Source: Limosilactobacillus fermentum (lineage in GTDB: Bacteria > Bacillota > Bacilli > Lactobacillales > Lactobacillaceae). From it: a DNA stretch of 64,000 nt. Shown one piece after another: positions 13,649 through 60,860 of this stretch. The position numbers were made by a program, and so were the translations under genes. The stretch's first letter is position 1, and the number at the start of each line of letters is the position of its first letter. The notes below the pieces were generated by a model. The model saw nothing but the letters and a program-made list of their open reading frames with translations. It was not told the DNA's origin and ran no database searches. The stretch covers positions 62,001 to 126,000 of the forward strand of contig NZ_CP040910.1 in NCBI RefSeq assembly GCF_013394085.1. Reading direction: 5' to 3'.

Positions 13649-13838
13649 GTGGGAAATAACCTTCTCGGCAGGTCGTATGACTAAGCTAGGACGAACGGTT
13701 AGTGCAGAATGCACTGTTCTTCGGCCTGCTTAGGCACTAGGCCTGCGGTTATTTACCACGTTTTATGTCTAACATTCGGGAATACAACAAGGGGCTGGGA
13801 GAAAACACAGTTTTCTCCCAGCCCCTTGTTTTTAGGTA
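13649..13838 (+). repeat. composite intergenic hairpin repeat, copy A (with terminator)
   Basis: Long hairpin: outer arms GTGGGAAATAACC (13649-13661) and GGTTATTTACCAC (13747-13759), then inner arms GGCAGGTCGTATGACTAAG and CTTAGGCACTAGGCCTGC. A linker GTCTAACATTCGGGAATACA leads to a terminator, GGGGCTGGGAGAAAAC / GTTTTCTCCCAGCCCC plus T-run (13791-13837). The same architecture recurs at 31337, 36646 and 47392. Confidence 0.8.
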
Positions 13839-13840
13839 TA

Positions 13841-13868
13841 AAAAAACCGCCACCCAAGCGGTGACGGA
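13841..13868 (-). terminator. terminator of tRNA-Lys copy 1
   Basis: On the minus strand, ACCGC-loop-GCGGT followed by six T, just downstream of the tRNA 3' end. Confidence 0.7.
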
Positions 13869-13874
13869 ATGAAA

Positions 13875-13947
13875 TGGGCAGTCAGGGGATCGAACCCTGG
13901 ACACCCGGATTAAGAGTCCGGTGCTCTGCCAGCTGAGCTAACTGCCC
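13875..13947 (-). tRNA. tRNA-Lys (anticodon CTT), copy 1
   Basis: Full cloverleaf on the minus strand, 73 nt. Acceptor arms are GGGCAGT/ACTGCCC, the D arm contains AGCTCAGCTGG, the anticodon loop CTCTTAA gives anticodon CTT, and the T arm is CAGGGTTCGATCCCCTG. The discriminator base is A; CCA is not encoded. It has its own promoter and terminator. Confidence 0.95.
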
Positions 13948-13967
13948 ATGTCTTAACAACATAAAAT

Positions 13968-13996
13968 ATAATACCAGTTGACCATCGTTTTGGCAA
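13968..13996 (-). promoter_or_regulatory. promoter of tRNA-Lys copy 1
   Basis: Minus strand TTGCCA, 17-bp spacer, TATTAT, ending about 20 bases before the tRNA. Confidence 0.7.
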
Positions 13997-14069
13997 GCCC
14001 CTTTTTAAAAAAGATCGGGGACCAGGGAAAGTGGGCCCCACCGCCAATTGAGGATGGCCATTTTTATAC

Positions 14070-14098
14070 AAAAAAACCGCCACCTAAGCGGTGACGGA
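14070..14098 (-). terminator. terminator of tRNA-Lys copy 2
   Basis: Same ACCGC...GCGGT plus T-run hairpin as copy 1, with one base changed in the loop. Confidence 0.7.
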
Positions 14099-14104
14099 AC
14101 GAAA

Positions 14105-14177
14105 TGGGCAGTCAGGGGATCGAACCCTGGACACCCGGATTAAGAGTCCGGTGCTCTGCCAGCTGAGCTAACTGCCC
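14105..14177 (-). tRNA. tRNA-Lys (anticodon CTT), copy 2
   Basis: Identical over all 73 nt to the gene at 13875-13947. The duplicated block also includes the terminator and a few flanking bases, so it looks like a tandem duplication of the unit, while the promoter spacers differ. Confidence 0.95.
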
Positions 14178-14203
14178 ATGTCATGTCTAACACAACGTTA
14201 TTA

Positions 14204-14232
14204 ACTATATCAGATGTGGTCTAATTTGGCAA
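14204..14232 (-). promoter_or_regulatory. promoter of tRNA-Lys copy 2
   Basis: Minus strand TTGCCA, 17-bp spacer, TATAGT. Confidence 0.7.
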
Positions 14233-14283
14233 GACCTTTTTGTGAAAAAAGTTGGAGGGCCGGGATCCACCCACCCGGTGTGG

Positions 14284-14289
14284 TATAAT
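14284..14289 (+). promoter_or_regulatory. -10 element of the walR operon
   Basis: TATAAT at 14284-14289 with TG just before it (TGTGGTATAAT). No clear -35 box is seen at the usual distance. It leaves a 5' leader of about 50 bases. Confidence 0.5.
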
Positions 14290-14344
14290 TAAGTTTACGA
14301 TCAATTAACGAAGAATGAAAAAAGATGGATGCGGAGGGACCGAC

Positions 14345-15052
14345 ATGGACAAGAAAGTTTTGGTTGTTGACGATGAAAAACCGATTTCGGATATCATTAA
14401 GTTTAACCTAGAAAAGGAGGGCTATGAAGTCGTCGTGGCTTACGACGGGGAAGAGGCCCTGCAAAAGGTCGAAAGCGAGTCACCGGATCTGATCGTCTTA
14501 GACCTGATGCTGCCCAAAATTGACGGCCTGGAAGTGGCTAAGCAGGTGCGGGCTAAGCGTTCGACGCCAATCATCATGGTAACGGCTAAGGATTCGGAAC
14601 TCGATAAGGTTTTGGGCCTTGAGTTGGGGGCCGACGATTACGTTACCAAGCCGTTTTCTAACCGTGAGCTAGTGGCCCGGGTTAAGGCTAACCTGCGCCG
14701 CCAAGACGCCACCGTTTCACCGGCGAACGACGACCGGACCGCCGATATCAAGGTGGGGGATTTGACCATCCACCCGGACGCCTACACGGTCACCAAGCGG
14801 GGCGAAAACATCAACCTGACCCACCGGGAGTTCGAGCTCTTGCACTACCTCGCCCAACACATTGGCCAGGTCATCAACCGGGAGCACCTCTTGCAAACGG
14901 TGTGGGGCTACGATTACTTTGGTGACGTCCGGACCGTTGACGTAACGGTGCGCCGGTTGCGTGAAAAAATCGAAGATAACCCGAGTCACCCCCAGTGGCT
15001 GATCACGCGGCGGGGGGTCGGTTACTACCTAGCCAACCCGAATCAGGATTAA
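14345..15052 (+). CDS. walR: response regulator WalR (YycF)
   Basis: Essential OmpR-family regulator of cell-wall metabolism, phosphorylated by WalK. The receiver domain shows the acidic pair DD (residues 9-10), phospho-acceptor Asp53 in VLDLMLP, Thr in MVTAKDSE and Lys in DDYVTKPF. The C-terminal winged helix includes [15 protein letters not shown] and the wing [18 protein letters not shown] chose ATG 14345, which has GCGGAGGGA in front and gives the standard 235 residues; an upstream in-frame ATG (14315) has no ribosome site. It heads the walRKHIJ-htrA run. Confidence 0.96.
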
Positions 15053-15063
15053 GGGCCTGAATC

Positions 15064-16923
15064 GTGAACAGCAAAATCAAATTCTACCAGTCGATCCACT
15101 TTAAAATCGCCCTTGTCTTTGCGCTGATGCTGATGCTGACGCTCGAAGTGGTGGGGGCGGTTTTTGTGCGTCAACTGGAACACCAAGAACTCGCCAACTT
15201 CAAGCAACAAATTGAGTTGCCGTCTTACATCGACAATTCCTTGGCCACCCAACTGACCAGCACCGATACCAAAACGGCCAACAAGGAAATTAAAACGATC
15301 CTCGCCCGGGTCAACAACACCAGTATCACCGAGATCCGGGTGGTCGATGCCAAGGGGATCATTCGCGGGACCAGTAGTTCGGGCAACCAGGGGATCGTCG
15401 GGCAAAAGACCACCGATACGGTAATTAAAAACACCCTGGTCAACAACCGCTCCCACACCGAAAACCTCTACGACAGCGCCAACCACAACCGCTACTACGT
15501 CAGTGTCGTGCCGCTGTTAGCCAGTGGCAACGCCAATAACGTGGTCGGGGTCGTTTACATGCGGGCCAACCTCGAGGGGGTCTATTCGACGATCAACTCG
15601 ATCTCCTTGATCTACCTGTCGGCGGCTTTGATCACGATTGTCCTGGGGCTGGGGTTAGCGGTCCTAATTTCCCGGGAAATTACCCGGCCGATTGAAGAAA
15701 TGCGCAAGCAGACCCTACGGATTGCCCGTGGGGACTTCTCCGGGCAGGTTAAGGTGATGGGCAACGACGAACTAGGCCAACTGGCCGGGGCAGTCAACAA
15801 CCTCTCGGTGCGGGTGGAGGAGTCCCAAGAGTCCTCGGATGCCGAACGGCGCCGGTTGGATTCAGTCCTCTCCCACATGTCTGACGGGGTGTTGGCTACC
15901 GACCGCCGGGGTAACCTGACGATCGTTAATAACACCGCCCTCCAGTTTTTAAACATCGCTGACGAAGAGCAGGTGCTCGGCAAGTCGATTTTGGACGTCT
16001 TAAAGATTCGGCGCCAATTCTCGATTCGCCACCTAGTCGACGAAGACCAAGACCAGGTTATCTTGGATGATTTAAACGAGGACCTGATTTTATCGGCCTA
16101 CTTCTCGCCGATTAAGCGGGAATCGGGCTTTGTCTCGGGTCTAGTTTGCGTCTTACATGACGTGACCTCCCAGCAAGAAGAGGAACGTGAACGTAAGGAG
16201 TTCGTTTCCAACGTTTCCCATGAATTACGGACGCCGCTGACCTCGGTCAAGTCCTATGTGGAAGCCCTCAGTGACGGGGCGATCAACGACCCGGAATTAG
16301 CCCCCCGCTTCTTAGGGGTGGTATCGGATGAAACCGAGCGGATGATCCGGATGATTAACGACCTCCTTAGCCTGTCGCGGATGGATGCGGGAACGGCTAA
16401 GTTAAACTTGGAGTACGTCAATATTAACGAGCTGTTTAACCACATTCTCAACCGTTTTGACATGATCATCAAAAACGAGGCCGCGGATCCGAGCCAAAAG
16501 AAGTACACGATTGTCCGTTACTTCACCAAAAAGGACCTGTGGGTTGAAATCGACACCGATAAGTTTACCCAGGTGGTCGATAACATCATGAACAACGCCG
16601 TTAAGTACTCACCGGACGGCGGGGTCATTACCGCCCGCCTGTTGGAGACCCACAACCACGTGATCCTGTCGATTTCTGACCAGGGGCTGGGGATTCCAAG
16701 AAAGGACCTCGGCCACATCTTTGACCGCTTCTTCCGGGTTGATAAGGACCGCTCCAGAAAGCAGGGCGGTACCGGGCTGGGCTTGGCGATTTCAAAGGAA
16801 GTCGTTAACCTGCTAGGCGGCCAAATCTGGGTTGATTCGGTTGAAGGCAAGGGGTCCACCTTCTACATTTCCTTGCCATACGTACCATACGAAGAGGAGG
16901 AATGGGATGATCAAGCAGATTAA
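15064..16923 (+). CDS. walK: sensor histidine kinase WalK (YycG)
   Basis: Membrane kinase that senses cell-wall status and phosphorylates WalR. Domains in order: first membrane helix (about 13-33), an extracytoplasmic Cache/PAS-like domain, second helix (about 178-200, SLIYLSAALITIVLGLGLA), HAMP, cytoplasmic PAS (LSHMSDGVLATDRRGNLTIV), HisKA with the phospho-accepting His in SNVSHELRTPLTSVKSY, and HATPase with DNIMNNAVKYSPDGG and GTGLGLAISKEVV. It has 619 residues and a GTG start 11 bases after walR. Its end overlaps the walH start by 17 bases. Confidence 0.96.
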   Translation: MNSKIKFYQSIHFKIALVFALMLMLTLEVVGAVFVRQLEHQELANFKQQIELPSYIDNSLATQLTSTDTKTANKEIKTILARVNNTSITEIRVVDAKGIIRGTSSSGNQGIVGQKTTDTVIKNTLVNNRSHTENLYDSANHNRYYVSVVPLLASGNANNVVGVVYMRANLEGVYSTINSISLIYLSAALITIVLGLGLAVLISREITRPIEEMRKQTLRIARGDFSGQVKVMGNDELGQLAGAVNNLSVRVEESQESSDAERRRLDSVLSHMSDGVLATDRRGNLTIVNNTALQFLNIADEEQVLGKSILDVLKIRRQFSIRHLVDEDQDQVILDDLNEDLILSAYFSPIKRESGFVSGLVCVLHDVTSQQEEERERKEFVSNVSHELRTPLTSVKSYVEALSDGAINDPELAPRFLGVVSDETERMIRMINDLLSLSRMDAGTAKLNLEYVNINELFNHILNRFDMIIKNEAADPSQKKYTIVRYFTKKDLWVEIDTDKFTQVVDNIMNNAVKYSPDGGVITARLLETHNHVILSISDQGLGIPRKDLGHIFDRFFRVDKDRSRKQGGTGLGLAISKEVVNLLGGQIWVDSVEGKGSTFYISLPYVPYEEEEWDDQAD

Positions 16924-18205
16924 AAAGAGCAGCCTGACGATTGCCCTGGTGATCGTGGTGGCCCTGTCGGCCGTTTTGTCGGCCAGCGTCTGGATCAATC
17001 CCTTCCACTACGAGCGGGGCAGCGGGGACAGCACGAGTACCTCGGCGCGCCAAGACACCGTTCAATCCCTGAGTGACATTTATAAGCCCACCGAGGTGAT
17101 CCGTACCTACCAGGACCGGTCGCAAAAGCTTCTCTATGACCAGGCTAAAAACCCGGTCATGGTGATTGAACAACAGGTCCGCAAGTGGAAGTTAAAGCAC
17201 CTTACCCGGGTCGTTAACAACGATTCGGCGGCCTACTTGCGGGACCTACGCACCGAAAACTCAATCATGATCTCCTACCCCGATGCCGTAGCCACCACGG
17301 TCTTTAACCAGACCTTTAATCAGAGTGTCGATACGGCCCGGCTCAAGCGGATCAACCACATCGTCATTACCCTGGATAAGACGCCGACCGTTTACTTGAT
17401 GGCCGACGAAAAGTACCAGGTCTACCGGCTGACGACGACCAGTCAATCACTTGCGGTGATCAAAAAGTCCCTGGTGGGGGGGAGCCAGTTAAACGTTGAC
17501 CACAAGATCGTCAACGGGATTCCTTTGACCACCTTCCCCCACCAGATCAGCATGCCCACCTACCGTTCAACGATTAACCACCAAAACCTGGACAGCATAG
17601 CCCAAACCCTGATGGCCTCGTCTAGCGTTTCGACGGTCAGTTCGCAAACGACCAGTAAGCTAATTACCTACACGGCTGGTAATTCGCGGCGGATGACTTA
17701 CAATAAGGGCACCGGCCAGGTTCAATACGACAACTACCTGGGAAAGGATAATTCCTACGGCACCCAGACTTTGTACACCCACCTGTTTGACCTGTTGGCC
17801 GACACTGCGGTCCCCCTGGAACAAGTTCAATACGACAACGTCTCCTTGGTCGGTCAAACGATTACCTACCGCTCCTTTGTCGAGGGTTTCCCGATCTTTA
17901 GTGACAATGACTACGGGACGGTCCGGATTAAGGCCAATAACGACGGGGTCGAACGCTACCACCTCTCGCCGTTAAGCCTGGGGACCCCACTTCCGGCGAG
18001 TGGCCAAAAGGTAACCTTGCCCTCGACGGTCACGGTTTTAAACGCCCTGTACCAAGCGGGAAAGGGCAAAGACATCAAGGGCTTACGGCTGGGCTACACC
18101 TGGGCGACCAACCAAAATAAGTCGCTCGTCACGCTTTCGCCAACCTATTACGTCTACTACCACGGTAACTGGGTCAAGTATCAAAGCCTGTTAAAGGGGG
18201 ATTAA
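16907..18205 (+). CDS. yycH: WalK regulatory membrane protein WalH (YycH)
   Basis: Single-pass protein that binds WalK at the membrane and tunes its activity together with WalI. An N-terminal helix (ALVIVVALSAVLSASVWINP, about residues 13-33) is followed by a large extracytoplasmic part. I chose ATG 16907 with GAGGAGGAATGG in front, which gives 432 residues and overlaps the walK 3' end. A longer frame from 16832 lies wholly inside walK. yycI starts one base after its stop. Confidence 0.9.
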   Translation: MIKQIKKSSLTIALVIVVALSAVLSASVWINPFHYERGSGDSTSTSARQDTVQSLSDIYKPTEVIRTYQDRSQKLLYDQAKNPVMVIEQQVRKWKLKHLTRVVNNDSAAYLRDLRTENSIMISYPDAVATTVFNQTFNQSVDTARLKRINHIVITLDKTPTVYLMADEKYQVYRLTTTSQSLAVIKKSLVGGSQLNVDHKIVNGIPLTTFPHQISMPTYRSTINHQNLDSIAQTLMASSSVSTVSSQTTSKLITYTAGNSRRMTYNKGTGQVQYDNYLGKDNSYGTQTLYTHLFDLLADTAVPLEQVQYDNVSLVGQTITYRSFVEGFPIFSDNDYGTVRIKANNDGVERYHLSPLSLGTPLPASGQKVTLPSTVTVLNALYQAGKGKDIKGLRLGYTWATNQNKSLVTLSPTYYVYYHGNWVKYQSLLKGD

Positions 18206-18206
18206 G

Positions 18207-19007
18207 ATGAACTTTCGCAGAATTCAGTGGATCTTTTTAATCGCCTTTATCATCTTGGACCTGGTACTCGTTTCAACCCTCTTATGGGGCAACGAGAACT
18301 TTTCCACCAGCGGCAAGCAACAGAGCCAGACCCAGCTGACCCTAAAGGAAATGAAGTCCAATTCGATTACCTACCCCAAGTTGAGCCCCAACTCCCAAAC
18401 GGGGTACTACTTAGCGGTGACCCCCGGGGACCTTTCAACGGAGCGGGGGCGGTTGAAAAACCAAACCACCCGGACCGATGGGAACCTGTTGACCGCTAAC
18501 TTTGTCGACGCCGTAGACCTATCTTCTTCCCAGTCAGTCCCCAAGCAACTAAAGAAGCTACTGAAGGATTCGCGCCTGTTCTTGCACGGGACTAGCTATC
18601 AATACAGCGCCGCTTTGTCGACTAGCCACAGCATCGTCTTTACCCAGGTAATTAAGGGTGAACCGGTGTTAAGCCACGAGGGGCAAATCCGGCTCCGGCT
18701 CAACGCCGCTAGGACTAAGGTGGTCGGTTACACCCAGGGCTACTTAAAAGAGGAGCGTGTTTTGCGGCCCCAGTCCGGGACGATCAGTCAGGTCCGGGCG
18801 GTCACCTGGTTGTACCGCCACAACGAAATTCCTAACAGTACGCAGATTGTCCGGGTGACCTACGGCTACAGCCCGCTGATGACTAGTAATGGTAAGCAGA
18901 TCTTCGTGCCGATTTACCAGGTTCAGTTGCGGGCCAAGAGCGCCACGACAACACAAAACTTGCGGATCAACGCCTTTAGTGGCACGATAATTCAGGAAAA
19001 CAATTAA
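18207..19007 (+). CDS. yycI: WalK regulatory membrane protein WalI (YycI)
   Basis: Partner of WalH. An N-terminal membrane helix (IFLIAFIILDLVLVSTLLW) is followed by a YycI-type extracytoplasmic domain. The 266-residue length is normal for the family. AAAGGGGGATTAAG forms the ribosome site at the end of yycH. The next gene, the metallo-hydrolase walJ, starts 14 bases later. Confidence 0.9.
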   Translation: MNFRRIQWIFLIAFIILDLVLVSTLLWGNENFSTSGKQQSQTQLTLKEMKSNSITYPKLSPNSQTGYYLAVTPGDLSTERGRLKNQTTRTDGNLLTANFVDAVDLSSSQSVPKQLKKLLKDSRLFLHGTSYQYSAALSTSHSIVFTQVIKGEPVLSHEGQIRLRLNAARTKVVGYTQGYLKEERVLRPQSGTISQVRAVTWLYRHNEIPNSTQIVRVTYGYSPLMTSNGKQIFVPIYQVQLRAKSATTTQNLRINAFSGTIIQENN

Positions 19008-19021
19008 GAAGGGAACGAAGA

Positions 19022-23855: not shown

Positions 23856-23991
23856 GTGGGTCGCACTTCCAATAACGTGCTCCCCAACCACGGGCCTAGT
23901 GGCTAAGTACGGCCGGAGAACGATGCGTACCGCATCAACCCCCATCCTAGCTTAGCCCAACGGCCCGTCGAGGAGGTTGGGTCGCACTTCC
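23856..23991 (-). repeat. intergenic hairpin repeat, copy B, plus a 15-bp fragment
   Basis: Reverse-oriented copy: ACGTGCTCCCCAACC near 23877 and GGTTGGGTCGCACTTCC at 23975-23991, with inner arms GGGCCTAGTGGCTAAG and CTTAGCCCAACGGCCC. A stray GTGGGTCGCACTTCC at 23856-23870 is the end of another, otherwise missing, copy. Confidence 0.75.
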
Positions 23992-31265: not shown

Positions 31266-31336
31266 TGATACTATCCCCTTATTTATTAATAAGGTTATTT
31301 AACGCCCTGAGGTGGGGAAAGGCAAGCAAAACAGAG

Positions 31337-31512
31337 TGGTAAATAACCCACTCGGCAGGCCGTATGACTAAGCTAGGGCGAACGGTTGGTACGGAACGCA
31401 CCGTTCTTCGCCCGTACTTAGACACTAGGCCTGCGGTTATTTACCAGGTTTTCTGTCTAAAATTCGTGACTACATTAAAAGGCCGGGAAACACGGAGTTA
31501 TTTCCCGGCCTT
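31337..31512 (+). repeat. composite intergenic hairpin repeat, copy C (with terminator)
   Basis: Outer arms TGGTAAATAACC (31337-31348) / GGTTATTTACCA (31435-31446), perfectly paired. Inner arms contain GGCAGGCCGTATGACTAAG and CTTAGACACTAGGCCTGC. Linker GTCTAAAATTCGTGACTACA, then terminator AAGGCCGGGAAA / TTTCCCGGCCTT (31481-31508). It lies between two minus-strand genes and can end the D-2-hydroxyacid dehydrogenase transcript. Confidence 0.8.
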
Positions 31513-31526
31513 ATTTTAGATATAAT

Positions 31527-31569
31527 ATGGCGCCCAACGGCCTGCTTTGATGGTTGGGCCGCACTTCCT
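31527..31569 (-). repeat. partial hairpin repeat, copy D
   Basis: Only one end of a reverse copy: CGCCCAACGGCCTGC...GGTTGGGCCGCACTTCC, ending at the stop codon of the next gene. Confidence 0.65.
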
Positions 31570-34399: not shown

Positions 34400-34433
34400 C
34401 TCACTTTAAATGACAATCAAGGGGGATTGCATT

Positions 34434-36527
34434 ATGGCACGAATTCCAGTAGATCCATTTAACAACGACATGGACGACTTATTTAACCAACTCATGGGGG
34501 GAATGAACGGGTTCAACAGCGACAACCGCCGTTACCTGATTAACGGGCGCGAAGTAACGCCTGAAGAGTACGCCGCCTTTCGCCAGACCGGGAAGCTCCC
34601 GGGTGTAACTGACCCAACCCAAGCAAAAACTAAGCAACCACAACCAGACAGCATGCTAGCTAAGCTCGGCCGCAACTTGACGCAAGAAGCCAAGGAAGGC
34701 AAGCTCGACCCGGTGATCGGCCGTAACAAGGAGATTCAAGAAACCGCCGAGATTCTGTCACGGCGGACCAAGAACAACCCAGTGTTAGTCGGTGACGCCG
34801 GGGTCGGCAAGACGGCGGTGGTGGAGGGCCTAGCCCAAGCCATCGTGGCCGGCGACGTTCCCGCTGCCATCAAGAACAAGCAGATTATTTCGATTGACAT
34901 TTCCAGCTTGGAGGCCGGGACCCAATACCGGGGCTCCTTTGAAGAGAACATGCAAAAGCTGATCGACGAGGTCAAAAAGGACGGCAACGTGATCCTCTTC
35001 TTCGATGAAATTCACCAAATCATCGGGGCCGGAAACGCCGGCGACGCCTCGGGTTCCAAGGGGATGGCCGATATCTTAAAGCCGGCCCTTTCCCGCGGTG
35101 AAGTGACCTTAATCGGGGCCACCACCCAAGACGAGTACCGTAACACGATTTTAAAGGACGCCGCTTTATCTCGGCGGTTCAACCAAGTAACGGTTAACGC
35201 CCCGAGCAAGGAAGACACTTTCAAGATCCTGCAAGGTTTGCGTAAGCTGTACGAAAAGCACCACAACGTTTCCTTGCCCGACGACGTCTTAAAGGCCGCC
35301 ATCGATTACTCGGTTCAATACATTCCGCAACGCTCCTTACCTGACAAGGCGATCGACTTGATTGACGTCACGGCCGCTCACCTGGCCTCCAAGCACCCGG
35401 TCAAGGACGCCAAGACGATTGAAGAGGAGATCAAAAAGGCCGAGGCCAAGCAACAAGAAGCGGTTGAAAAAGAGGATTACCAAGCCGCCCAAGAGGCCAA
35501 GGACCAGGTGGCCAAGTTGCAAGACCAACTCAAGGACCACTCCGAATCCGAACGGGTCGTGGCAACGCCGAGTGACGTGGCCGCCGCCGTTGAACGGATG
35601 ACCGGGATCCCGGTGTCCAAGATGGGTGCTTCCGATATCGAACGCTTAAAGGGCTTAGCCACCCGTTTGGAAGGCAAGGTTATCGGCCAACAAGAGGCCG
35701 TCGAAGCCGTGAGCCGGGCGATCCGGCGTAACCGGGCCGGCTTTGATGAAGGTAACCGGCCAATTGGGAGCTTCCTTTTCGTCGGCCCAACCGGGGTCGG
35801 TAAGACCGAATTGGCTAAGCAACTAGCCCTCGATATGTTTGGTTCCACCAACGACATCATCCGGCTCGACATGTCCGAATATACCGACCGGACGGCGGTT
35901 TCCAAGTTGATCGGGACCACCGCTGGCTACGTGGGTTACGACGATAACTCCAACACCCTGACCGAAAAGGTACGGCGTCACCCGTACTCGATCGTCTTGC
36001 TCGACGAAATCGAAAAGGCCAACCCGCAAGTCATCACCTTGCTCTTGCAAGTCTTAGATGATGGGCGCCTAACCGATGGGCAAGGGAACACGGTGGACTT
36101 CAAGAACACCATCATCATCGCCACCTCTAACGCCGGCTTCAGTAGCGACGCCGTGGCGGGCGAGGACGCTAAGTTGATGGACAAGTTGCAACCGTACTTC
36201 CGGCCAGAATTCCTGAACCGGTTTAACGCAATCGTGGAATTCCACGCCCTGACCAAGGACGACTTAAAGCAAATCGTCGACCTGATGTTAGCCGGGGTTA
36301 ACGAAACCTTGGCCAAGAAGGGGATGGACGTCACGGTGACCGATGAAGTGAAGAACTACCTGATTGACAAGGGCTATGACAAGACGATGGGGGCCCGGCC
36401 ACTGCGGCGGGTGGTGGAACAAGAGATCCGTGACAAGGTGACGGATTACTACCTCGACCACCTGGACGAAAAGCACCTCGTGGCCACCTTAAAGGACGGC
36501 CAAGTCGTGATTGAACAAGCAAAGTAA
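34434..36527 (+). CDS. clpL: ATP-dependent chaperone ClpL (Hsp100)
   Basis: Disaggregase of low-GC Gram-positives linked to heat and acid tolerance. It has 697 residues. The N-terminus is short and Asn/Gln-rich, without the double Clp-N repeat, which separates it from ClpC and ClpB. D1 has Walker [14 protein letters not shown] and Walker [12 protein letters not shown] short coiled-coil middle domain follows ([20 protein letters not shown]). D2 has Walker [15 protein letters not shown] and Walker [14 protein letters not shown] 34434 has GGGGGATTG in front. No ClpP partner is encoded nearby; ClpL acts without ClpP in the family. Confidence 0.95.
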
Positions 36528-36747
36528 GTGCGGATCAACCTTCTCGACAGGCCGTTGGGCTAAGCTAGGACGGGGGTTGATACGGCACGCATCGTTCTCC
36601 GACCGTACTTAGCCACTAGGCCTGTGGTTGGGAGCACGTTAAAAGTAAGTGCGGACCAACCATTTGGCAGGCCGTGGGCTAAGGCTAGGCCTAACATTTG
36701 AATAGCTGTAAAAAGAGACTGGAAAAAGTTTTCCAGCCTCTTTTTTT
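36527..36747 (+). repeat. intergenic hairpin repeats, copy E and truncated copy E2 with terminator
   Basis: Copy E (36527-36644) begins at the clpL stop: AAGTGCGGATCAACC and GGTTGGGAGCACGTTA, inner arms ACAGGCCGTTGGGCTAAG and CTTAGCCACTAGGCCTGT. Copy E2 (36646-36697) has lost its apical part (GGGCTAAGGCTAGGCCT), then the linker GCCTAACATTTGAATAGC and a terminator GAGACTGGAAAA / TTTTCCAGCCTC plus seven T (36716-36746). Confidence 0.8.
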
Positions 36748-36827
36748 GGTCAGTGAAGTGAATTTCTTGGTTCTCCGGGTCCACTACGTTAAAATAAAGA
36801 TATTCATAACGTTTGGGGGTGTTGGTG

Positions 36828-38288
36828 ATGGGTTTAACGTGGGACCTGATTAGGTGGGCGCTTTTGGTGATCGTGATCATCAACGAAGTGGCGGCCCTGG
36901 TGACCGTTTTCCGGGAAAAACGGGACATCGCCGCTACTTGGGCCTGGCTAATGGTGCTAATGATTCCGGTGATCGGCTTTATCATTTACGCCTTTTTGGG
37001 CCGGAAATTACCCCAAAAACGCCTGGAACGGATTAGTTCGCCAACCGCCCAACACCTATACGACGCCTTTGAAGAACAGCGGACCGCCTTTGTGGAGATG
37101 CCCCGCCCCGAGGACAGCCTGGTGCAAACCTACCGGCGAACGATCATGCTCTTTCAAAGCATTGATGAGTCCTTTTTGAGCGAGGACAACCAGGTGGAAA
37201 TCTTCACCACCGGGATTACCTTTTTTAACCGGTTACTAACCGATATTGAGCAAGCCAAACAAAGCATCCACATTGAGTTTTACACCATCTACAACGACCA
37301 AATTGGCAACCGCCTACGGACCCTCTTGGAACAAAAGGCGGCCGCGGGTGTAGAGGTGCGGGTGCTGTACGATTCTTGGGGCTCAATGGGGGTGAAGAAG
37401 AGCTTTTACGATAACCTACGTAAAAACGGCGGCTTTGCCAGTCCCTTTTTGATGACCCACTCTAATTTCTTAGACTTTCGGTTAAACTACCGCGACCACC
37501 GTAAGATCGTCGTTATTGATGGCCAGATTGGTTACGTGGGGGGCTTTAACGTCGGTGATCAGTACCTAGGCCGGCTAAAGAAATTCGGCCCGTGGCGCGA
37601 CACCCACCTAAGGATTCAAGGGGGCGGGGTTTACAGCCTCCAGCAGTGCTTCTTGCGTGACTGGAACGCCTCGGTCAAGCCGGCCGAGCGCTTGACCCAC
37701 TTTAAGGACTACTTTCCTTCGGCCGCCCTCAACAAGGGAAAAACGGCGATGCAGATTGTCTCGTCGGGGCCGGATGCCCCCCTGCAGGCCATCAAGCTCG
37801 GCTACTTGCGCCTAATCAACGCCGCCCAGGACCATATTTGGATCCAGACGCCCTACCTGATTCCCGATGATTCGGTGATCGACGCCCTACGGATTGCCGC
37901 CCACTCCGGGGTGGACGTCCGGATCATGATCCCTTCGATGCCCGACCACGCCTTTGTTTACCGGGCCACCCAGTATTACGCCCGCGCCCTAGCCAACGAA
38001 GGGGTGACGATTTATTCTTACCAGGTGGGCTTCTTGCACGCCAAGACAATGACGATCGACGGCAAGATGGCGGCGGTGGGGTCGGCCAACCTCGACTTCC
38101 GGTCCTTTCAGCTCAACTTTGAGATCAACGCCTTCTTGTACGACCGGCAGTTAGTTGATGAGCTAGAACAAATCTTCATTAACGACGTCCGTGACAGCCG
38201 GGTGATTACCCCGGAGATGTTTGATGCCCAACCACTGGGCCTACGTTTTAAGCAGACCTTCTCGCGGTTGTTGTCGCCGATTTTATAG
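36828..38288 (+). CDS. cls: cardiolipin synthase
   Basis: Phospholipase D-type membrane enzyme that makes cardiolipin from two phosphatidylglycerols. Two N-terminal helices (WALLVIVIINEVAALVTVF, WAWLMVLMIPVIGFIIYAFL) precede two HKD motifs: NYRDHRKIVVIDGQIGYVGG and FLHAKTMTIDGKMAAVGSAN. It has 486 residues. ATG 36828 with GGGGGTGTTGG upstream was chosen over a TTG at 36813. A hairpin repeat and a strong terminator follow. Confidence 0.94.
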   Translation: MGLTWDLIRWALLVIVIINEVAALVTVFREKRDIAATWAWLMVLMIPVIGFIIYAFLGRKLPQKRLERISSPTAQHLYDAFEEQRTAFVEMPRPEDSLVQTYRRTIMLFQSIDESFLSEDNQVEIFTTGITFFNRLLTDIEQAKQSIHIEFYTIYNDQIGNRLRTLLEQKAAAGVEVRVLYDSWGSMGVKKSFYDNLRKNGGFASPFLMTHSNFLDFRLNYRDHRKIVVIDGQIGYVGGFNVGDQYLGRLKKFGPWRDTHLRIQGGGVYSLQQCFLRDWNASVKPAERLTHFKDYFPSAALNKGKTAMQIVSSGPDAPLQAIKLGYLRLINAAQDHIWIQTPYLIPDDSVIDALRIAAHSGVDVRIMIPSMPDHAFVYRATQYYARALANEGVTIYSYQVGFLHAKTMTIDGKMAAVGSANLDFRSFQLNFEINAFLYDRQLVDELEQIFINDVRDSRVITPEMFDAQPLGLRFKQTFSRLLSPIL

Positions 38289-38289
38289 G

Positions 38290-38393
38290 GAAGTGTGCCT
38301 CAACCATTAAAGCAGGCCGTGGGCTAAGGAAAGACCACAGGTTAGCGCGCCAGCGGTGTTCTGTGGTCAGACTTAGCCACTAGGTTGGATAAC
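38290..38393 (+). repeat. intergenic hairpin repeat, copy F
   Basis: AAGTGTGCCTCAACC at the start, inner arms GCAGGCCGTGGGCTAAG / CTTAGCCACTAGG, and an apical stem GACCACAG / CTGTGGTC. It starts just after the cls stop. Confidence 0.75.
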
Positions 38394-38395
38394 TA

Positions 38396-38432
38396 AAAAT
38401 GCCTCCCTGTTTCGGGGAGGCATTTTTTAGGT
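38396..38432 (+). terminator. terminator after cls
   Basis: AAAATGCCTCCC-loop-GGGAGGCATTTT, with A and T runs on both sides. Confidence 0.85.
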
Positions 38433-47391: not shown

Positions 47392-47541
47392 GAGTGCGCT
47401 CCAGCCTATCAAGCAGGCCGTGGGCTAAGGATAGGTTACAGGTTAGTGCACCAGCGGTTATTGACCACGTTGGCTGCCTAACATTCAGAAAGATAATAAG
47501 CGCCCGGGAGAAAATCGTGTTTTCTCCTAGGCGCTTTTTTA
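47392..47541 (+). repeat. composite intergenic hairpin repeat, copy G (with terminator)
   Basis: GAGTGCGCTCCAGCC, GCAGGCCGTGGGCTAAG, then a partly deleted 3' arm, linker GCCTAACATTCAGAAAGATA and terminator GCGCCCGGGAGAAAA / TTTTCTCCTAGGCGC plus T-run (47501-47541). Confidence 0.75.
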
Positions 47542-49330: not shown

Positions 49331-49344
49331 TACCAAAGGACTGG

Positions 49345-49530
49345 ACAGGATAAATGTTTAGATTTGCGCAATAAAAAGTGAGTGCGGACCAACCATTGGT
49401 AGGCCGTGGGCTAAGGATAGGGCGAACGGTTGGTGCGCCAGCACCGTTCTTCGGCCAGGCTTAGCCACTAGGCCTGCGGTTGGGGAGCACGTTATCCTGC
49501 GCAAATTTGCAGATTTGTCCTGTCTTGCAA
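49345..49530. repeat. hairpin repeat copy H inside a larger palindrome
   Basis: The repeat core (49379-49496) has AGTGCGGACCAACC and GGTTGGGGAGCACGTTA, inner arms TAGGCCGTGGGCTAAG / CTTAGCCACTAGGCCT and apical CGAACGGT/ACCGTTCT. It is flanked by a second, larger inverted repeat: GGACAGGATAAATG...ATTTGCGCA on the left and TGCGCAAAT...ATTTGTCCTGTC on the right. Confidence 0.8.
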
Positions 49531-55171: not shown

Positions 55172-55207
55172 TTGTGAAATTTATGGCAGTGACGATAAAT
55201 TTCACAA
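55172..55207. promoter_or_regulatory. 13-bp inverted repeat with Rex-like half-sites
   Basis: TTGTGAAATTTAT (55172-55184) and ATAAATTTCACAA (55195-55207) are exact inverse copies with a 10-bp spacer. TTGTGAA is the half-site of the NADH-sensing repressor Rex, but a Rex site normally has only a 4-bp gap. The surrounding bases 55075-55340 are AT-rich and hold no gene. Confidence 0.65.
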
Positions 55208-55267
55208 GTTAAGTTAAGCGGTACATAGTGTGTTAAATGTTACTTAATGAACAGGATCTAAAAATAC

Positions 55268-55295
55268 TTGTGAAATTTGAAAAAGCGGTTACAAT
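55268..55295 (+). promoter_or_regulatory. promoter of the aldehyde dehydrogenase gene
   Basis: TTGTGA (55268-55273), 16-bp spacer, TACAAT (55290-55295). The -35 box is part of a third copy of TTGTGAAATTT. Confidence 0.6.
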
Positions 55296-55340
55296 GTGAA
55301 GTGCAGATAACAACCAACTAATTATTAAGGAGGCCTACTC

Positions 55341-56723
55341 ATGGCATATCAAACTGTTAATCCTTATACCAATGAAGTTGAACACACTTACGCAGATACC
55401 ACTCCAGAAGAAGTGGAGAAGGCGTTAAGCCTGGCGCACGGTCTGTACTTAAAGTGGCACGACGGCTCTGGTCTGGAAGAACGGAAAGCTGTGATTACAA
55501 AGCTGGGGACGCTCCTTCGCGAACGCCGCACGGAAATGGCTGAACTGATGACCCGTGACATGGGGAAGTTAATCGGTGAAGCCGAAGGTGAAGTTGACCT
55601 TTGTGCAAGCTTTTGTGACTACTACGTAGAACACGCCAACGAATTCCTGGCACCAAAGCCAATCTACACCACTTCCGGGAACGCCTTTATCTTAAAGCAA
55701 TCCCTCGGGGTACTGATGGCGGTTGAACCATGGAACTTCCCGTTCTACCAAATCGCCCGGGTCTTTATCCCGAACTTCATCGTCGGGAACCCGATGCTGT
55801 TAAAGGACGCTGCTAACTGCCCAACCTCGGCCCAAGCCTTTGCTGACTTGGTACTGGAAGCCGGCGCCCCAGAAGGTTCTTTGACCAACCTCTTTGTTAG
55901 CTACGACCAAGTTTCCGAAATCATCGCTGACCCACGGGTTGCCGGGGCCTGCCTGACTGGTTCCGAACGTGGTGGTCGTTCCGTGGCCACGGAAGCCGCT
56001 AAGTCCCTGAAGAAGAGCACCCTGGAACTGGGTGGGAACGACGCCTTCGTTGTTTTGGAAGACGCCGACATGGACAAGCTGGCCAAAATCCTGCCGCAAA
56101 CCCGTCTGTACAACGCTGGGCAAGTATGTACTTCCTCCAAGCGTTACATCGTTCCGGAAAAGCTGGTTCCGCAATTTGTGAACATCTTAAAGGACGGCTT
56201 CTCCAAGGTTAAGATGGGCGACCCGTTGGACCGCTCCACGACTTTGGCTCCGCTTTCCTCGAAGAAGGCCAAGGAAAAGCTGACCCAACAAGTTCAACTG
56301 GCCATCGACAACGGGGCTAAGCTCGAATACGGCTTTGAACCAGTGGAAGACCAAGAGGGTCAATTCTTCATGCCAACCATCCTGACCGGGGTAACGGTGG
56401 AAAACCCAATCTTTGACCAAGAAATGTTCGGCCCAGTCGCCGTTATCTACCCGTACAAGACCGAAGAAGAAGCCATTGAAATTGCTAACAACTCTAGCTA
56501 CGGCCTTGGGAACACCGTCTTTGGTACCAACATTGCCCACGCCCGTGAAGTGGCTTCCAAGATCGAAGCCGGCATGAGCTGGATCAACGCTGGTTGGGCC
56601 TCCCTGCCTGAACTCCCATTTGGTGGGGTTAAGCACTCCGGTTACGGTCGTGAATTAAGTGAAATTGGTTTCAATGAATTCGTTAACCAACACCTGATTT
56701 ACGAAGTAGAACCAACCGCTTAG
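55341..56723 (+). CDS. NAD(P)-dependent aldehyde dehydrogenase, succinate-semialdehyde dehydrogenase-like
   Basis: Oxidises an aldehyde to an acid. It has 460 residues with the catalytic Glu in STLELGGNDAFVVLEDAD and Cys in NAGQVCTSSKRYIV. The fold's MAVEPWNFPFYQIARV segment binds cofactor. Codon use is that of a highly expressed gene: the third position favours C or A and it has a strong AAGGAGG site. Relatives are annotated as succinate-semialdehyde dehydrogenases, but in a lactobacillus the real substrate may be another aldehyde. The upstream TTGTGAAATTT repeats suggest redox-linked control. Confidence 0.88.
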   Translation: MAYQTVNPYTNEVEHTYADTTPEEVEKALSLAHGLYLKWHDGSGLEERKAVITKLGTLLRERRTEMAELMTRDMGKLIGEAEGEVDLCASFCDYYVEHANEFLAPKPIYTTSGNAFILKQSLGVLMAVEPWNFPFYQIARVFIPNFIVGNPMLLKDAANCPTSAQAFADLVLEAGAPEGSLTNLFVSYDQVSEIIADPRVAGACLTGSERGGRSVATEAAKSLKKSTLELGGNDAFVVLEDADMDKLAKILPQTRLYNAGQVCTSSKRYIVPEKLVPQFVNILKDGFSKVKMGDPLDRSTTLAPLSSKKAKEKLTQQVQLAIDNGAKLEYGFEPVEDQEGQFFMPTILTGVTVENPIFDQEMFGPVAVIYPYKTEEEAIEIANNSSYGLGNTVFGTNIAHAREVASKIEAGMSWINAGWASLPELPFGGVKHSGYGRELSEIGFNEFVNQHLIYEVEPTA

Positions 56724-56755
56724 TCTTTACCTCCCTCTCCTCTTAAATTTATCGG

Positions 56756-56799
56756 TGAAAATCCCCGTCAATTCCCCAGGGACGGGGATTTTTTGTTGC
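56756..56799 (+). terminator. terminator after the aldehyde dehydrogenase gene
   Basis: AAAATCCCCGTC-loop-GACGGGGATTTTTTG. Confidence 0.9.
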
Positions 56800-56857
56800 C
56801 AATTTTCCAATTTAAAGTTGGGGGAGTCAGAAAAAGGTTGAGAAGGGCGGCCGAGTG

Positions 56858-56886
56858 TTGACATGGTGCCCCGCCCCGGTTAAGAT
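56858..56886 (+). promoter_or_regulatory. pyr operon promoter
   Basis: TTGACA (56858-56863), exactly 17 bp, TAAGAT (56881-56886). Confidence 0.75.
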
Positions 56887-56904
56887 AGAAATAATAAGCA
56901 ATGC

Positions 56905-57546
<642 letters not shown>

Positions 57547-57555
57547 AATCACCAT

Positions 57556-57650
57556 TTAAGTAACTCCAGCGAGGGTGCAAGGGTGAAGTGGGCCGTTAGT
57601 GCGGTGCCTTTTTCATGGCTTCTCCCTTCCTGGGGGAAGCCTTTTTGTTT
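57556..57650 (+). promoter_or_regulatory. PyrR-dependent attenuator 2 (between pyrR and pyrF)
   Basis: AACTCCAGCGAGGGT (57562-57576) fits the PyrR binding loop. A terminator follows: GGCTTCTCC (57617-57625) / GGGGGAAGCC (57632-57641) plus TTTTTG. Confidence 0.75.
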
Positions 57651-57664
57651 AGGAGGAAAAAGAA

Positions 57665-58396
57665 ATGCAACGTTTTGAACCCATGGTCGCCGTCGACGTT
57701 GAGACCAAGCAAGAGGCCCTGCGCCTGTTTGACAAGTTATCTAGCGACACCGATCACCAACCAATCGTTAAAATCGGGATGGAACTGTACTACGCCTTTG
57801 GTCCCGGGATCGTCCGCGAAGCCAAGGGCCGGGGCTTGACCGTCTTTTTAGACCTGAAGCTTTACGACATCCCTAACACCGTGGAACGGACGATGCGGGT
57901 GCTCGGGGCCCTGGGCGCTAACTTTGTAACCACCCACGCCGCCGGGGGGACCGAAATGATGAAGGCTGCCAAGCGCGGGCTCTTGGCCGGGGCAGCGGCG
58001 GCGGGACGGCGCCAGCCTAAGCTGTTAGCCGTCACTAAGTTGACCTCGATTGACGAACAGATCCTCCACGACGAACAAAAGGTGGCCGGCACCCTGATTG
58101 AGGCGGTGCAAAACGCCGCCCACCTGACGGAGGCGGCCGGTTTGGACGGGGTGATTTGCTCGGCCCAAGAAGTCGAAGCGATCCGCCAGGTAACCGGGCC
58201 GGACTTCTTATGCGTTACGCCGGGGATCCGGTTGAACCTGGATAACAAGGACGACCAAAAGCGGGTGGTCACCCCCGCCCAGGCCCGGGAACTGGGGAGT
58301 AACGCGATTGTGGTCGGCCGGCCGATCACCTTAGCTAAGGACCCGATGAAGGCCTACAATGAAATTCGCCAAGACTTTATGGGGGAACAAGACTAA
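57665..58396 (+). CDS. pyrF: orotidine 5'-phosphate decarboxylase
   Basis: Last step to UMP. TIM barrel of 243 residues with the catalytic DxKxxD array in VFLDLKLYDIPNTVERTM. The phosphate-binding end motifs are CVTPGIRL and IVVGRPITLAKDP. AGGAGGAAAA gives a strong ribosome site. Its stop overlaps the pyrE start (TAATGG). Confidence 0.96.
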   Translation: MQRFEPMVAVDVETKQEALRLFDKLSSDTDHQPIVKIGMELYYAFGPGIVREAKGRGLTVFLDLKLYDIPNTVERTMRVLGALGANFVTTHAAGGTEMMKAAKRGLLAGAAAAGRRQPKLLAVTKLTSIDEQILHDEQKVAGTLIEAVQNAAHLTEAAGLDGVICSAQEVEAIRQVTGPDFLCVTPGIRLNLDNKDDQKRVVTPAQARELGSNAIVVGRPITLAKDPMKAYNEIRQDFMGEQD

Positions 58397-59022
58397 TGGA
58401 GTTTGAACAAACCGTTGCAAACGACTTGCTGAGAATTAGGGCCGTCACCCTGCGCCCCGACCACCCTTTCACCTGGGCCAGTGGTATCAAGGCGCCAATT
58501 TACACCGATAACCGGCTGACGATTTCCTACCCGGACGTGCGCCAACACATTTACCAAGGGATGAGTGACCTGATTCGCCGTTTTTACGGTGAGGCGACGG
58601 TGATCGCTGGGACCGCCACGGCTGGGATCCCCCACGCCGCTTGGGTGGCCGAAGAATTGGGCTTGCCGATGATTTACGTCCGCTCCAAGCCCAAGGACCA
58701 CGGTCAGGGCCGACAAATCGAAGGGGTCCTGGTACCGGACGCCAAGGTCGTGGTAATCGACGACCTGCTGAGCACCGGGGGTTCGGTACTCAACGCCGTT
58801 AAAGCGGTCCAAAAAGAGGGTGCTGAAGTCCTTGGCGTGGTGGCGGACTTCTCCTACCAGTTACCGGCTTTAGACGAGAACTTTGCGGCCGCCAACCTGA
58901 CCTACCACACGGTCACCAACTACACGACCCTGATCGAAGTCGCCGAACGCAATCACATGGTGACTTACGCCCAAAAGGATTCCCTGCACGCCTGGCGCAA
59001 GGACCCGGCTAACTGGGGTTAA
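58396..59022 (+). CDS. pyrE: orotate phosphoribosyltransferase
   Basis: Adds ribose phosphate from PRPP to orotate, making OMP for PyrF. The 208-residue protein has the PRPP motif VVVIDDLLSTGGSVLNAV, the flexible loop RSKPKDHGQGRQIEG and an N-terminal orotate region (FTWASGIKAPIYTDNR). The start overlaps pyrF. It ends the cluster. Genes for the earlier steps (carAB, pyrB, pyrC, pyrD) are not in this window. Confidence 0.96.
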   Translation: MEFEQTVANDLLRIRAVTLRPDHPFTWASGIKAPIYTDNRLTISYPDVRQHIYQGMSDLIRRFYGEATVIAGTATAGIPHAAWVAEELGLPMIYVRSKPKDHGQGRQIEGVLVPDAKVVVIDDLLSTGGSVLNAVKAVQKEGAEVLGVVADFSYQLPALDENFAAANLTYHTVTNYTTLIEVAERNHMVTYAQKDSLHAWRKDPANWG

Positions 59023-59443
59023 TAACTAAGGTGCATTAACTACCGCTTAAAATAAGCTTTATCCAATGCCTTTGACGGCTCGCCGGTGGCGCTAGCCCTT
59101 TCTAAGGTAGTGGGTCCTAACTTGAGTCACTTGTCCTGGGGCTTATTATTCGTGATCCCGGTGGTAATTGTGCTCTTGGCGCTCTTGGGAATTCACCCGC
59201 TGGTCTCAATTACCCTGCTGGGACAAGTTCTATTGACTAGCCAAGTAACGATCCCAACCTTGGCGATTGCGTTAGCCTTAAACGTGGGTGGGGCACTGTC
59301 CTACCTGGTCTCACCATTCGAAGGGGCGATTGTTTTAATTAGCGACCTGGCTGACGTCCCGCCGACAACGGTGGCAATTAAGTATAATGGTTGGTTTGGC
59401 CTGTGGTTCTTGTTGCTCAGTACCGTGGTGATCTATTTCTTTA

Positions 59444-60497
59444 GGCAGATTGCAAGAAATAACTTGAACGAATTTAGTGACGTAGATTAAGCAAGAAGAT
59501 CTCGATTGGTGTGTGCCAGTTAAGACATTTAAGTGGTCGGGAATTCAGATACCAATTGATTTGAACCAGCTGGCGATCGCTCAGCTCTTCAATGGCTTGT
59601 CCCTTGGGAATAAACCGTCGCAAAACTCGGTTACGGTTCTCATTACTACCACGTTCATGTGGTGAATAAGCATGGGCAAAATAAACCTGAGTACCTGTTA
59701 GCTGTTCAATTGTCTGATAGTTAGCGAACTCTTTACCATGATCCACGGTAAGCGTCTTGAGCTTGTCTTGAAGTTGACTAGCTAGTTCAAGTACGGCTTG
59801 AGTCATGGACTGACTGTCGCGACCATGGAGCCGTTTAACAATTGTCAGGCGACTCTTACGTTCCACAAAAGTAGCCACAGCCTGACCTTTACGTTTGCCA
59901 GAAAGTACGGTATCAGCTTCAAAGTGGCCGAATTCCTGGCGAGTTTCGACTTTATGAGGCCGCTCCTCAATGGAGCGGCCGTGATTGAACGTACCACGCT
60001 TTTCTTTAGCACGATGACGACGAATTCCATGATCAGGCAAATCGGGCAACTGTATATCAAGCCAGCCTTGATCAATCCAGTTATAGACCGTCTTGTAGGT
60101 AATCCCCACCACATGGGCAACTTGTTCAGGGGACCACTTCTGGACTTGAATCTTTTCCTCGACCAAGTGTTTAAGGTTTTTAGTGAGCGAAGACTTCCGC
60201 CCCCGTTGACTAACCTTTCGTTCAAAGTCAGTCTGCGCTAGCCCAGCCTGGTACTCACTATTTAGCCGGTGAAGTTCGTTAAAGATGGTGGTCTTACTAA
60301 AGCCTAAGTAGTTAGCGATGTATCGCAAGGAACGTCCTTCATTATGAAGCGTTTCAATGACAACACGGTTCTGGAATGATAAAATAGTGGTGCTCATCAA
60401 GGTCCTTCTTTCTAATGGATTGTGTGGTAACACCATTAAAGACCTTGATGGGTTTTTCTGTCCACTTAAATGTTCAACTTAAATTTTACAATCTGCC
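59444..60497. mobile_element. IS30-family insertion sequence
   Basis: About 1054 bp. Imperfect terminal inverted repeats: GGCAGATTGCAAGAAATAAC at the left end and, inverted, GGCAGATTGTAAAATTTAAG at the right end, with matching TTGAAC further in. Flanked by TTTA on both sides (59440-59443 and 60498-60501), a likely target duplication. It contains one intact transposase gene on the minus strand, so it may still be active. Confidence 0.85.
59474..60397 (-). CDS. IS30-family transposase
   Basis: DDE transposase of 307 residues. Two N-terminal helix-turn-helix parts (LRYIANYLGFSKTTIFNEL and WSPEQVAHVVGITYKTVYNW) precede the catalytic domain: first Asp in FGHFEADTVLSGKRKGQAV, second Asp in LTVDHGKEFANY, and Glu in SPHERGSNENRNRVLRRFIP. 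The ATG at 60397 with AAGGACC upstream was chosen; a longer frame begins outside the usual start. Its stop lies inside the left inverted repeat, as is common in this family. Confidence 0.94.
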   Translation of the reverse strand: MSTTILSFQNRVVIETLHNEGRSLRYIANYLGFSKTTIFNELHRLNSEYQAGLAQTDFERKVSQRGRKSSLTKNLKHLVEEKIQVQKWSPEQVAHVVGITYKTVYNWIDQGWLDIQLPDLPDHGIRRHRAKEKRGTFNHGRSIEERPHKVETRQEFGHFEADTVLSGKRKGQAVATFVERKSRLTIVKRLHGRDSQSMTQAVLELASQLQDKLKTLTVDHGKEFANYQTIEQLTGTQVYFAHAYSPHERGSNENRNRVLRRFIPKGQAIEELSDRQLVQINWYLNSRPLKCLNWHTPIEIFLLNLRH

Positions 60498-60514
60498 TTT
60501 ACCAATTAAAGGAA

Positions 60515-60557
60515 AATAAAAAGGCTTCGCACCCGAAAATGCGAAGCCTTTATTTAT
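60515..60557 (+). terminator. terminator of the interrupted permease gene
   Basis: AAAGGCTTCGCA / TGCGAAGCCTTT with A and T runs, 10 bases after the original stop codon. Confidence 0.85.
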
Positions 60558-60570
60558 TCTTGGATGTTAG

Positions 60571-60860
60571 GTAACGTGCTAACCCACGGCCCGTTTCGGA
60601 GGTTGGGTCGCACTTCCCCCATAACGTGCTCCCCAACCACAGACCTAGTGGCTAAGTCTGGTCACAGAACACCACCTAGGCGGCAACCCCCGCCCTAGCT
60701 TAGTCCAACGGCCCATTTGGAGGTTGGTCCGCACTTTTCCCATAACGTGCTCCCCAACCGCAGACCTAGTGGCTAAGTCTGGTCACAGAACACCGCTGAC
60801 GCGCTAACCTGTGCCCTATCCTTAGCCCACGGCCTGCTTAATAGGCTGGGTCGCACTTCC
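60571..60860 (-). repeat. tandem hairpin repeats, copies I (partial), J and K
   Basis: Three reverse-oriented units in a row: I (60571-60617), J (60621-60737) and K (60741-60860). J and K are near-identical over TAACGTGCTCCCCAACC and GACCTAGTGGCTAAGTCTGG, and differ in the apical and 3' arms. K ends on the stop codon of the next minus-strand gene. Confidence 0.8.

Follow-up and report, generated by a model that had tools for sequence, protein, structure and literature searches.

The described systems closest to the hairpin repeat treated here, which is dispersed in the genome of Limosilactobacillus fermentum, are small bacterial repeats and RNA candidates. The REP/BIME sequences with their RAYT (TnpA-REP) transposases are extragenic and high in copy number, occur in arrays and form strand-specific irregular hairpins with compensatory changes; the transposase gene stands between two inverted copies, and the REPs have a GTAG or GTGG head at the foot of the hairpin and a length of 20-40 nucleotides (nt) (PMC2817692, PMC8266576). 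The pneumococcal BOX, RUP and SPRITE elements are small repeats of the Lactobacillales which would be folded if transcribed, show an excess between convergent genes and contain tandem modules (PMC3049150). The repeats bcr1-bcr18 of Bacillus cereus are restricted to that group and intergenic, some being mobile, some RNA-structured and part of them transcribed in untranslated regions (UTRs), with mobility described in connection with a TTTAT motif (PMC6542083, PMC3446304). Lastly, the Rfam RNAs Lacto-rpoB, Lacto-usp and L17 downstream element are likewise structured RNA candidates, from the same order Lactobacillales (PMC2864571). The BOX and bcr repeats are set beside the present one by their descriptions only. 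The repeat was studied in a stretch of 64,000 nt of L. fermentum (the window, being bases 62001-126000 of a contig of 1,887,974 bases) and in the rest of that genome and its relatives. It resembles REP/BIME and the pneumococcal small repeats in behaviour but lacks the testable features which define them, and we consider it probable (roughly 0.6) that it represents a new family of dispersed, non-coding, mobile structured repeats of about 116 nt.

The unit (116-117 model positions) folds as a single irregular hairpin. This begins with an outer stem of 13 base pairs (bp), followed by a bulge of 4-8 nt on the 5′ side only, a 7-bp stem, an internal loop and a stem of 5-7 bp, and closes with another internal loop and an apical stem, which is long and contains a mostly conserved U.G wobble. 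In the type 2 copies of L. fermentum the outer stem often possesses an internal loop, the genome's own copies being 78.5% Watson-Crick paired there. The fold persists as the letters of its stems are exchanged, and this holds among the copies of L. fermentum as well as over nine genera. An alignment of 20 foreign and 10 chosen own copies (A4) was made with MAFFT without structure, and a 43-pair structure which we had named ourselves was then applied to it. Two-sided changes were found in 34 of the 43 pairs, and none of 500 shuffles reached any of five covariation measures, with 91.6% of the cells being paired as against 74.8% after shuffling and 36-42% when the structure was slid. The shuffle control ignores relatedness among the copies; the slid-structure control retains it and agrees. 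In the outer arms (13 pairs), 89.6% of the cells of A4 are paired.

A further alignment of 48 copies from nine genera (A6), which was made to the model and leans toward the structure, shows two-sided changes in 40 of the 43 pairs, and here too the five measures were reached by none of 500 shuffles. Its members are matches with an E-value of 4e-8 or less from 40 chosen loci, a cut that was meant to exclude antisense matches and that also loses four weaker sense matches. One apical pair is U.G in 29/30 copies of A4 and in 37/47 of A6. Within the genome itself, 87 pairs of nearest neighbours contain 100 two-sided changes, of which 72 keep the pair, compared with 14.8 expected for independent arms. 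RNAalifold, applied to the first 33 own copies, predicted just 26 pairs, with two-sided changes in 9. A preliminary description of the window had quoted paired changes in the outer and apical arms and suggested selection for RNA or DNA structure from them; the changes are present as quoted in the alignment, and the suggestion is supported by covariation that exceeds both controls on a structure-free alignment. It might be argued that the units are a by-product of tandem repeats or of terminators, with a fold arising by chance, as they do adjoin terminators and form arrays, yet this is refuted by the same covariation, on which the shuffled and slid controls concur, and its probability is negligible.

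The paired cells also indicate which strand folds. On the 48 copies of A6 there are 182 G.U cells and 10 A.C cells, while the corresponding counts are 90 and 3 for the 20 foreign copies of A4 (out of 28, near duplicates and poorly aligned copies having been removed) and 548 and 95 for 130 own copies that cover the model at a length of 112-120 nt, a set which is less well aligned. As a G.U pair of the sense strand would be an A.C mismatch on the opposite strand, pairing is kept on the sense strand. The sense fold is also stronger than the antisense fold in 115 of 127 copies. The folding sense strand most likely acts as RNA.

Movement as single-stranded DNA through a Y1 (HUH) transposase, in the manner of REP/BIME elements, would be in keeping with the strand-specific irregular hairpin of the unit, its tandem arrays, its extragenic position and its high copy number, and there are 15 Y1 transposase matches in the genome. 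However, none of the 15 Y1 genes has a unit within 3 kb both upstream and downstream (among the best 150 copies), and of eight of these loci scanned with model R2 just one has a single unit within 1.5 kb. The excess of G.U and the conserved U.G wobble look more RNA-like, and the unit measures 116 nt and not 20-40 and is without the GTAG head (PMC2817692, PMC8266576). Most aligned units begin with AGTG and some with GCTG or others, followed by variable bases, while those single copies that read GTGG at the start of the unit share these letters with the outer stem. With regard to these differences, movement of this kind is considered improbable.

With the gathering scores of Rfam 15, no unit matched in the window and 12 foreign loci, where only tRNA and T-box were identified, and one window stretch examined at E-values up to 10 gave nothing near the threshold of any family. 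In being below every Rfam gathering score in these stretches, the units differ from Lacto-rpoB, Lacto-usp and L17 downstream element. The module order of BOX is A-(B)n-C, whereas here it is the whole hairpin unit that is repeated; also unlike BOX, RUP and SPRITE, as far as the description of these extends, are the two-sided changes over nine genera and the position of units close behind stops (PMC3049150). The Lac-1 repeat of L. johnsonii (PMC2267715) was set aside by its description, as it is 231 nt in length and genic and hence unlike the unit. In the literature searched, which took in few subscription papers, we recognised no account of a repeat like this one in these bacteria. Integron attC sites possess GTTRRRY and RYYYAAC boxes together with an integron integrase. 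The earlier statement that no named family with this sequence was known holds for the stretches scanned with Rfam, and no transposase that would mark the repeat as a known miniature inverted-repeat transposable element (MITE) was seen to accompany it, although the search did not take in the ends of insertion sequences in a systematic way.

L. fermentum is the richest in units of the genomes examined. With one copy as query, BLAST found 66 places in its genome, and a whole-genome model search found at least 150 copies; since all 150 candidates scored (the best of 1067) were matches, the actual copy number may be higher. In fetched stretches around matched places, amounting to 491,172 bases with the window included, nhmmer identified 178 whole or partial copies, 152 of which span at least 100 model positions. 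There are 127 arrays, namely 90 single, 26 double, 10 triple and one of six units, and the array period is 118-132 bp with the whole unit being repeated. Tandem neighbours are 82% identical on average and random pairs 77.5%; six of 28 neighbour pairs have an identity of at least 97%, so that some arrays are recently duplicated, with most containing unlike units. The GC content of the units is 48-64%, and their right end is CACGTTAT in most own copies. Of 99 arrays, 34 have a stub after the last complete unit and 57 the conserved tail TGTSTAAY, which often runs into a terminator. The origin-proximal half of the genome contains 81 of the 127 arrays (p 0.002), oriC being set at ~60 kb, where we presume it to lie from recF-gyrB-gyrA-like open reading frames (ORFs) at the start of the window and from gene order as generally known.

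The placement of the units relative to genes is not even. Sixty-six of the 127 arrays begin between -2 and 12 nt from a same-strand stop codon (ORFs of at least 90 codons), in comparison to two on the antisense side and to 0-7 at ten displaced control positions. A foreign set of 70 loci contains near duplicates, along with three copies that follow one and the same gene, asnB; in this set, 35 copies lie -4 to 14 nt from a sense stop and none from an antisense one. With the annotated genes of strain DR9, the distance from a stop to the start of the array is 8, 2 and 5 nt for three of five arrays. For the window, copies had been described as lying mostly right after stop codons. Four of its eight arrays (36527, 38292, 47393, and 60742) are indeed within 12 nt of a same-strand stop, with that at 13648 following at 22 nt, which makes "mostly" slightly strong. 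A terminator-like hairpin occurs within 170 nt on the 3′ side of 87/127 arrays and on the 5′ side of 34/127. In our reading, a terminator ahead of the unit is the commonest constant feature, and proximity to a stop is secondary, arising where the gap between a gene's own stop and its terminator is the site.

The orientation of neighbours was classified for 120 of the 127 arrays, those for which both neighbours were called (at least 150 amino acids). A sense gene lies upstream in 88 of these, with its stop no more than 40 nt away in 71. Such tight placement in sense behind stops, along with the preference for G.U over A.C, is what a regulatory or stabilising RNA of the 3′ UTR would display, one kept by selection on the host gene, whose hairpin shields the mRNA 3′ end or contacts the terminating ribosome and whose dispersal is incidental; in B. 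cereus, co-transcribed bcr3 repeats accompany a longer mRNA half-life (PMC3446304). However, 27 of the 120 arrays are antisense to both neighbours, a finding which weakens a purely mRNA-based role, and for just three of these 27 does a sense ORF of 90 or more codons end no more than 40 nt away. The copies concerned fold like the rest (mean -61.2 vs -59.5 kcal/mol, p 0.43), and between co-directional genes there are 29 arrays in sense and 27 in antisense. Many of the 27 sit beyond the downstream gene's terminator, toward which they are directed, as judged by eye from the flanks. When the lack of any copy found in L. gorillae and seven other Limosilactobacillus species is added, a role under host-gene selection is possible but doubtful as an explanation for the family. 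An effect of the replication strand was also looked at and rejected: host genes are leading in 25/54 cases and others in 168/237, a difference that partly follows from convergent and antisense placement, and within convergent pairs the lagging and leading counts are 37 and 22 (p 0.07, and p 0.07-0.15 over six settings).

Model searches covered the Lactobacillales, among which carriers are patchy. The covariance model R1, made from 33 copies, matched in 28 of 115 relatives, a number that counts the own genome; 27 of the 28 belong to the own genus (best 32 candidates per genome). With the best nine candidates per genome, model R2 matched in 46 of 396 Lactobacillaceae genomes, belonging to 13 of 40 genera, and R3 in 34 of 395 Lactobacillales genomes, 33 of which are Lactobacillaceae. 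The sole carrier outside that family among the 395 (G605, locus L296) has six R3 matches. No match was found in eight Limosilactobacillus genomes, including the sister species L. gorillae, with 149-150 candidates scored in each; at the same depth, genomes G024, G030 and G041 gave 40, 12 and 6 matches, antisense ones included. There was also no match in phage records with one copy as query. In three genomes of other genera (L191, L192, and L193, 1501-1616) a unit lies 2 nt behind the stop of asnB, and on a plasmid of Lactiplantibacillus plantarum (L210, 6001-6116) a unit lies behind asnB beside an IS256 transposase. Unit matches occur in 35 plasmid records, and all eight listed rows from other genera name asnB. 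In the case of asnB, a unit is carried on plasmids together with a gene.

A comparison of strains and relatives for empty sites had been proposed, and relatives do show sites without the unit. In L. gorillae (the genome with contig NZ_BCAH01000021.1) no unit is present in the stretches aligned to seven window sites (23872, 31335, 36527, 38292, 47393, 49381, and 60571-60857), the site of 13648 being outside what was aligned. At sites 31335 and 60571, L. fermentum has an extra gene-sized stretch too, and these are not simple insertions. At 38292 the stop codon of L. gorillae leads directly into a terminator shared by both species, with the L. fermentum unit sitting exactly between the two, while at the other sites compared the intergenic sequence is too diverged for junctions to be read. 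As the sister species is without units at these sites, they were either acquired on the L. fermentum branch or have disappeared from the sister. In strain DR9, there is one more whole unit than in the window's genome at each of two sites, and at one of these the window's genome retains a 5′ stub of 33 nt. The DR9 record (L248, CP033372.1; 759,694 bases) is labelled as a plasmid; it contains housekeeping genes, is 99% identical to the main contig over 20 kb and is probably chromosomal sequence. In plasmid records no high-identity counterpart was found for the window region or for two other stretches, while the stretch compared with DR9 has one.

With regard to the window itself, the inner-arm motifs occur five and seven times (up to 3 mismatches), where 0.08 and 0.07 would be expected from shuffles. 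About 12 copies had been claimed in the preliminary description, and R1, run without filters, recovers all 12 places, eight near full length and four partial; the remaining weaker matches are antisense matches of these copies or have E-values of at least 0.4. The first copy (13648..13764, +; 100.6 bits with R1) is a full unit with type 1 outer arms (GTGGGAAATAACC/GGTTATTTACCAC), behind which lie the conserved tail (TGTCTAACATTCGGGAATACAACAAG) and an intrinsic terminator (13765..13829, +), similar to those behind many copies. A full unit of type 2 (GTGCG..CCAACC/GGTTGGGGAGCAC) occupies 23872..23988 on the minus strand (123.5 bits), its orthologous L. gorillae site being without a unit. At 31335..31452 (+, 106.6 bits) there is a full type 1 unit, again followed by the tail motif and an intrinsic terminator (31453..31515, +; inverted repeat 31479-31512) and then, on the minus strand, by a 5′ stub (31522..31565) which is weak alone (14.5 bits, E 0.076) and whose letters correspond to the opening ~40 nt of a unit.

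The full unit at 36527..36642 (+, 118.1 bits) overlaps the stop codon (distance -1) of a Clp-like AAA ORF (34410-36527; Pfam AAA_2 and ClpB_D2-small), behind which the L. gorillae site has no unit, and the 5′ part of a second tandem unit follows (36648..36712, +; 22.2 bits). The unit at 38292..38400 (+, 70.3 bits) is without its 3′ outer arm and lies 3 nt behind the stop of a PLD-family ORF (36813-38288), the inverted repeat at 38395..38427 (+) being the native intrinsic terminator common to L. fermentum and L. gorillae. At 47393..47473 (+, 27.2 bits), starting 2 nt behind the stop of an aldo/keto reductase ORF (Pfam), is a unit with an internal deletion, in which a type 2 5′ end is joined to a type 1 3′ end. 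The minus-strand tandem array close to the end of the window consists of a first full unit, separated by 2 nt from the preceding stop of ORF 60860-61522 (60742..60857, 125.7 bits), a second full unit (60621..60735, 96.7 bits) and a partial unit at its end (60571..60614, 19.8 bits, E 0.0022).

The remaining full unit, of type 2 (49381..49495, +; 122.1 bits), is inside a second, larger inverted repeat with 37-nt arms (49344..49524, +), so that the copies do not all have one context. This larger frame (GACAGGACAAAT..TTTGCGCAA and complement) is represented by 26 half-frames in the genome and is also found at 189296, 587683, 748758, 1404655, 1518441, 1704151, 1855318 and other places. Between its two arms there are six full-size hairpin units, and by eye a unit or remnant was seen in or adjoining 9 of 12 frame loci inspected. 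Possibly this frame is a MITE in its own right, by which units have been captured.

The units themselves could be ordinary MITEs, with the outer arms as terminal inverted repeats acted on by the DDE transposase of an insertion sequence and a position that merely reflects the tolerance of gene ends. The 13 pairs of the outer arms do serve as terminal inverted repeats, if imperfect ones, arrays are in excess between convergent genes (80 against 40 between co-directional genes) as with pneumococcal BOX, RUP and SPRITE (PMC3049150), and the six full-size units within the larger frame fit as well. Nevertheless, a MITE needs conserved ends only, yet all four helices of the unit covary and the letters of its internal loops are conserved, while its outer arms change freely between types, unlike ends bound by a transposase. 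No duplication of target bases could be read, the only clean empty site belonging to a copy without its 3′ arm, and the GC content given above contrasts with the AT-richness described for MITEs (PMC3049150). An ordinary MITE is accordingly thought unlikely.

In the preferred reading, that of a mobile family defined by its fold, a mobilising machinery supplied in trans would recognise the sense strand in its folded state, most likely as RNA, and the fold would be selected in those copies that move, with terminator-flanked gene ends acting as preferred or tolerated landing sites. The fold is kept in copies which no neighbouring gene would transcribe in sense, and this is most easily explained by selection during movement; that antisense-placed copies fold equally well is what such selection, acting for movement and not for the host mRNA, would lead one to expect. 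Copies in a 3′ UTR would be transcribed with the gene and may in a secondary role shield the mRNA 3′ end. REP sequences are known to shield mRNA 3′ ends, and for the many copies behind stops an effect on these ends is plausible.

A number of points weigh against this reading. Where nearest copies are compared, one-sided changes resulting in a mispair are frequent as well (89, with a further 72 kept by wobble and 12 with none paired), and exchange between subfamilies could add to the count of two-sided changes within the genome. The tandem units are barely more alike than random pairs, a result not predicted by a simple duplication model, and the copies are of some age, their closest counterparts in other arrays having a median identity of 90.5%, with only 10 of 139 at 95% or more; with copies of this age, selection may act at the level of the copy too. 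No target-site duplication was readable, given that 38292, the sole clean empty site, concerns an incomplete copy, and the absence from L. gorillae could be loss. The lack of a Y1 gene framed by any of the best 150 copies also counts here, as does that of a reverse transcriptase of family PF00078 in the own genome (the control matched in 3 of 14 genomes), which does not exclude a past or foreign reverse transcriptase. The RNA nature of the folding strand, moreover, is inferred from sequence.

More speculatively, the repeat might be a bacterial counterpart of the short interspersed nuclear elements (SINEs), that is, an RNA-defined element of the Lactobacillaceae whose folded transcript is recognised by a trans-acting machinery, which is placed between stops and terminators and of which the fold and not the sequence is inherited, though we hold this to be rather unlikely. 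Interspersed repeats of bacteria are usually known by their sequence, whereas the present one is known by a fold that persists while most of its stem letters change. As it is present in well over 100 places in a food-associated species and none were found in the sister species, its gain, its spread and its effects on transcripts are directly testable, and should the mobilising enzyme read the fold, this would provide a route to finding that enzyme.

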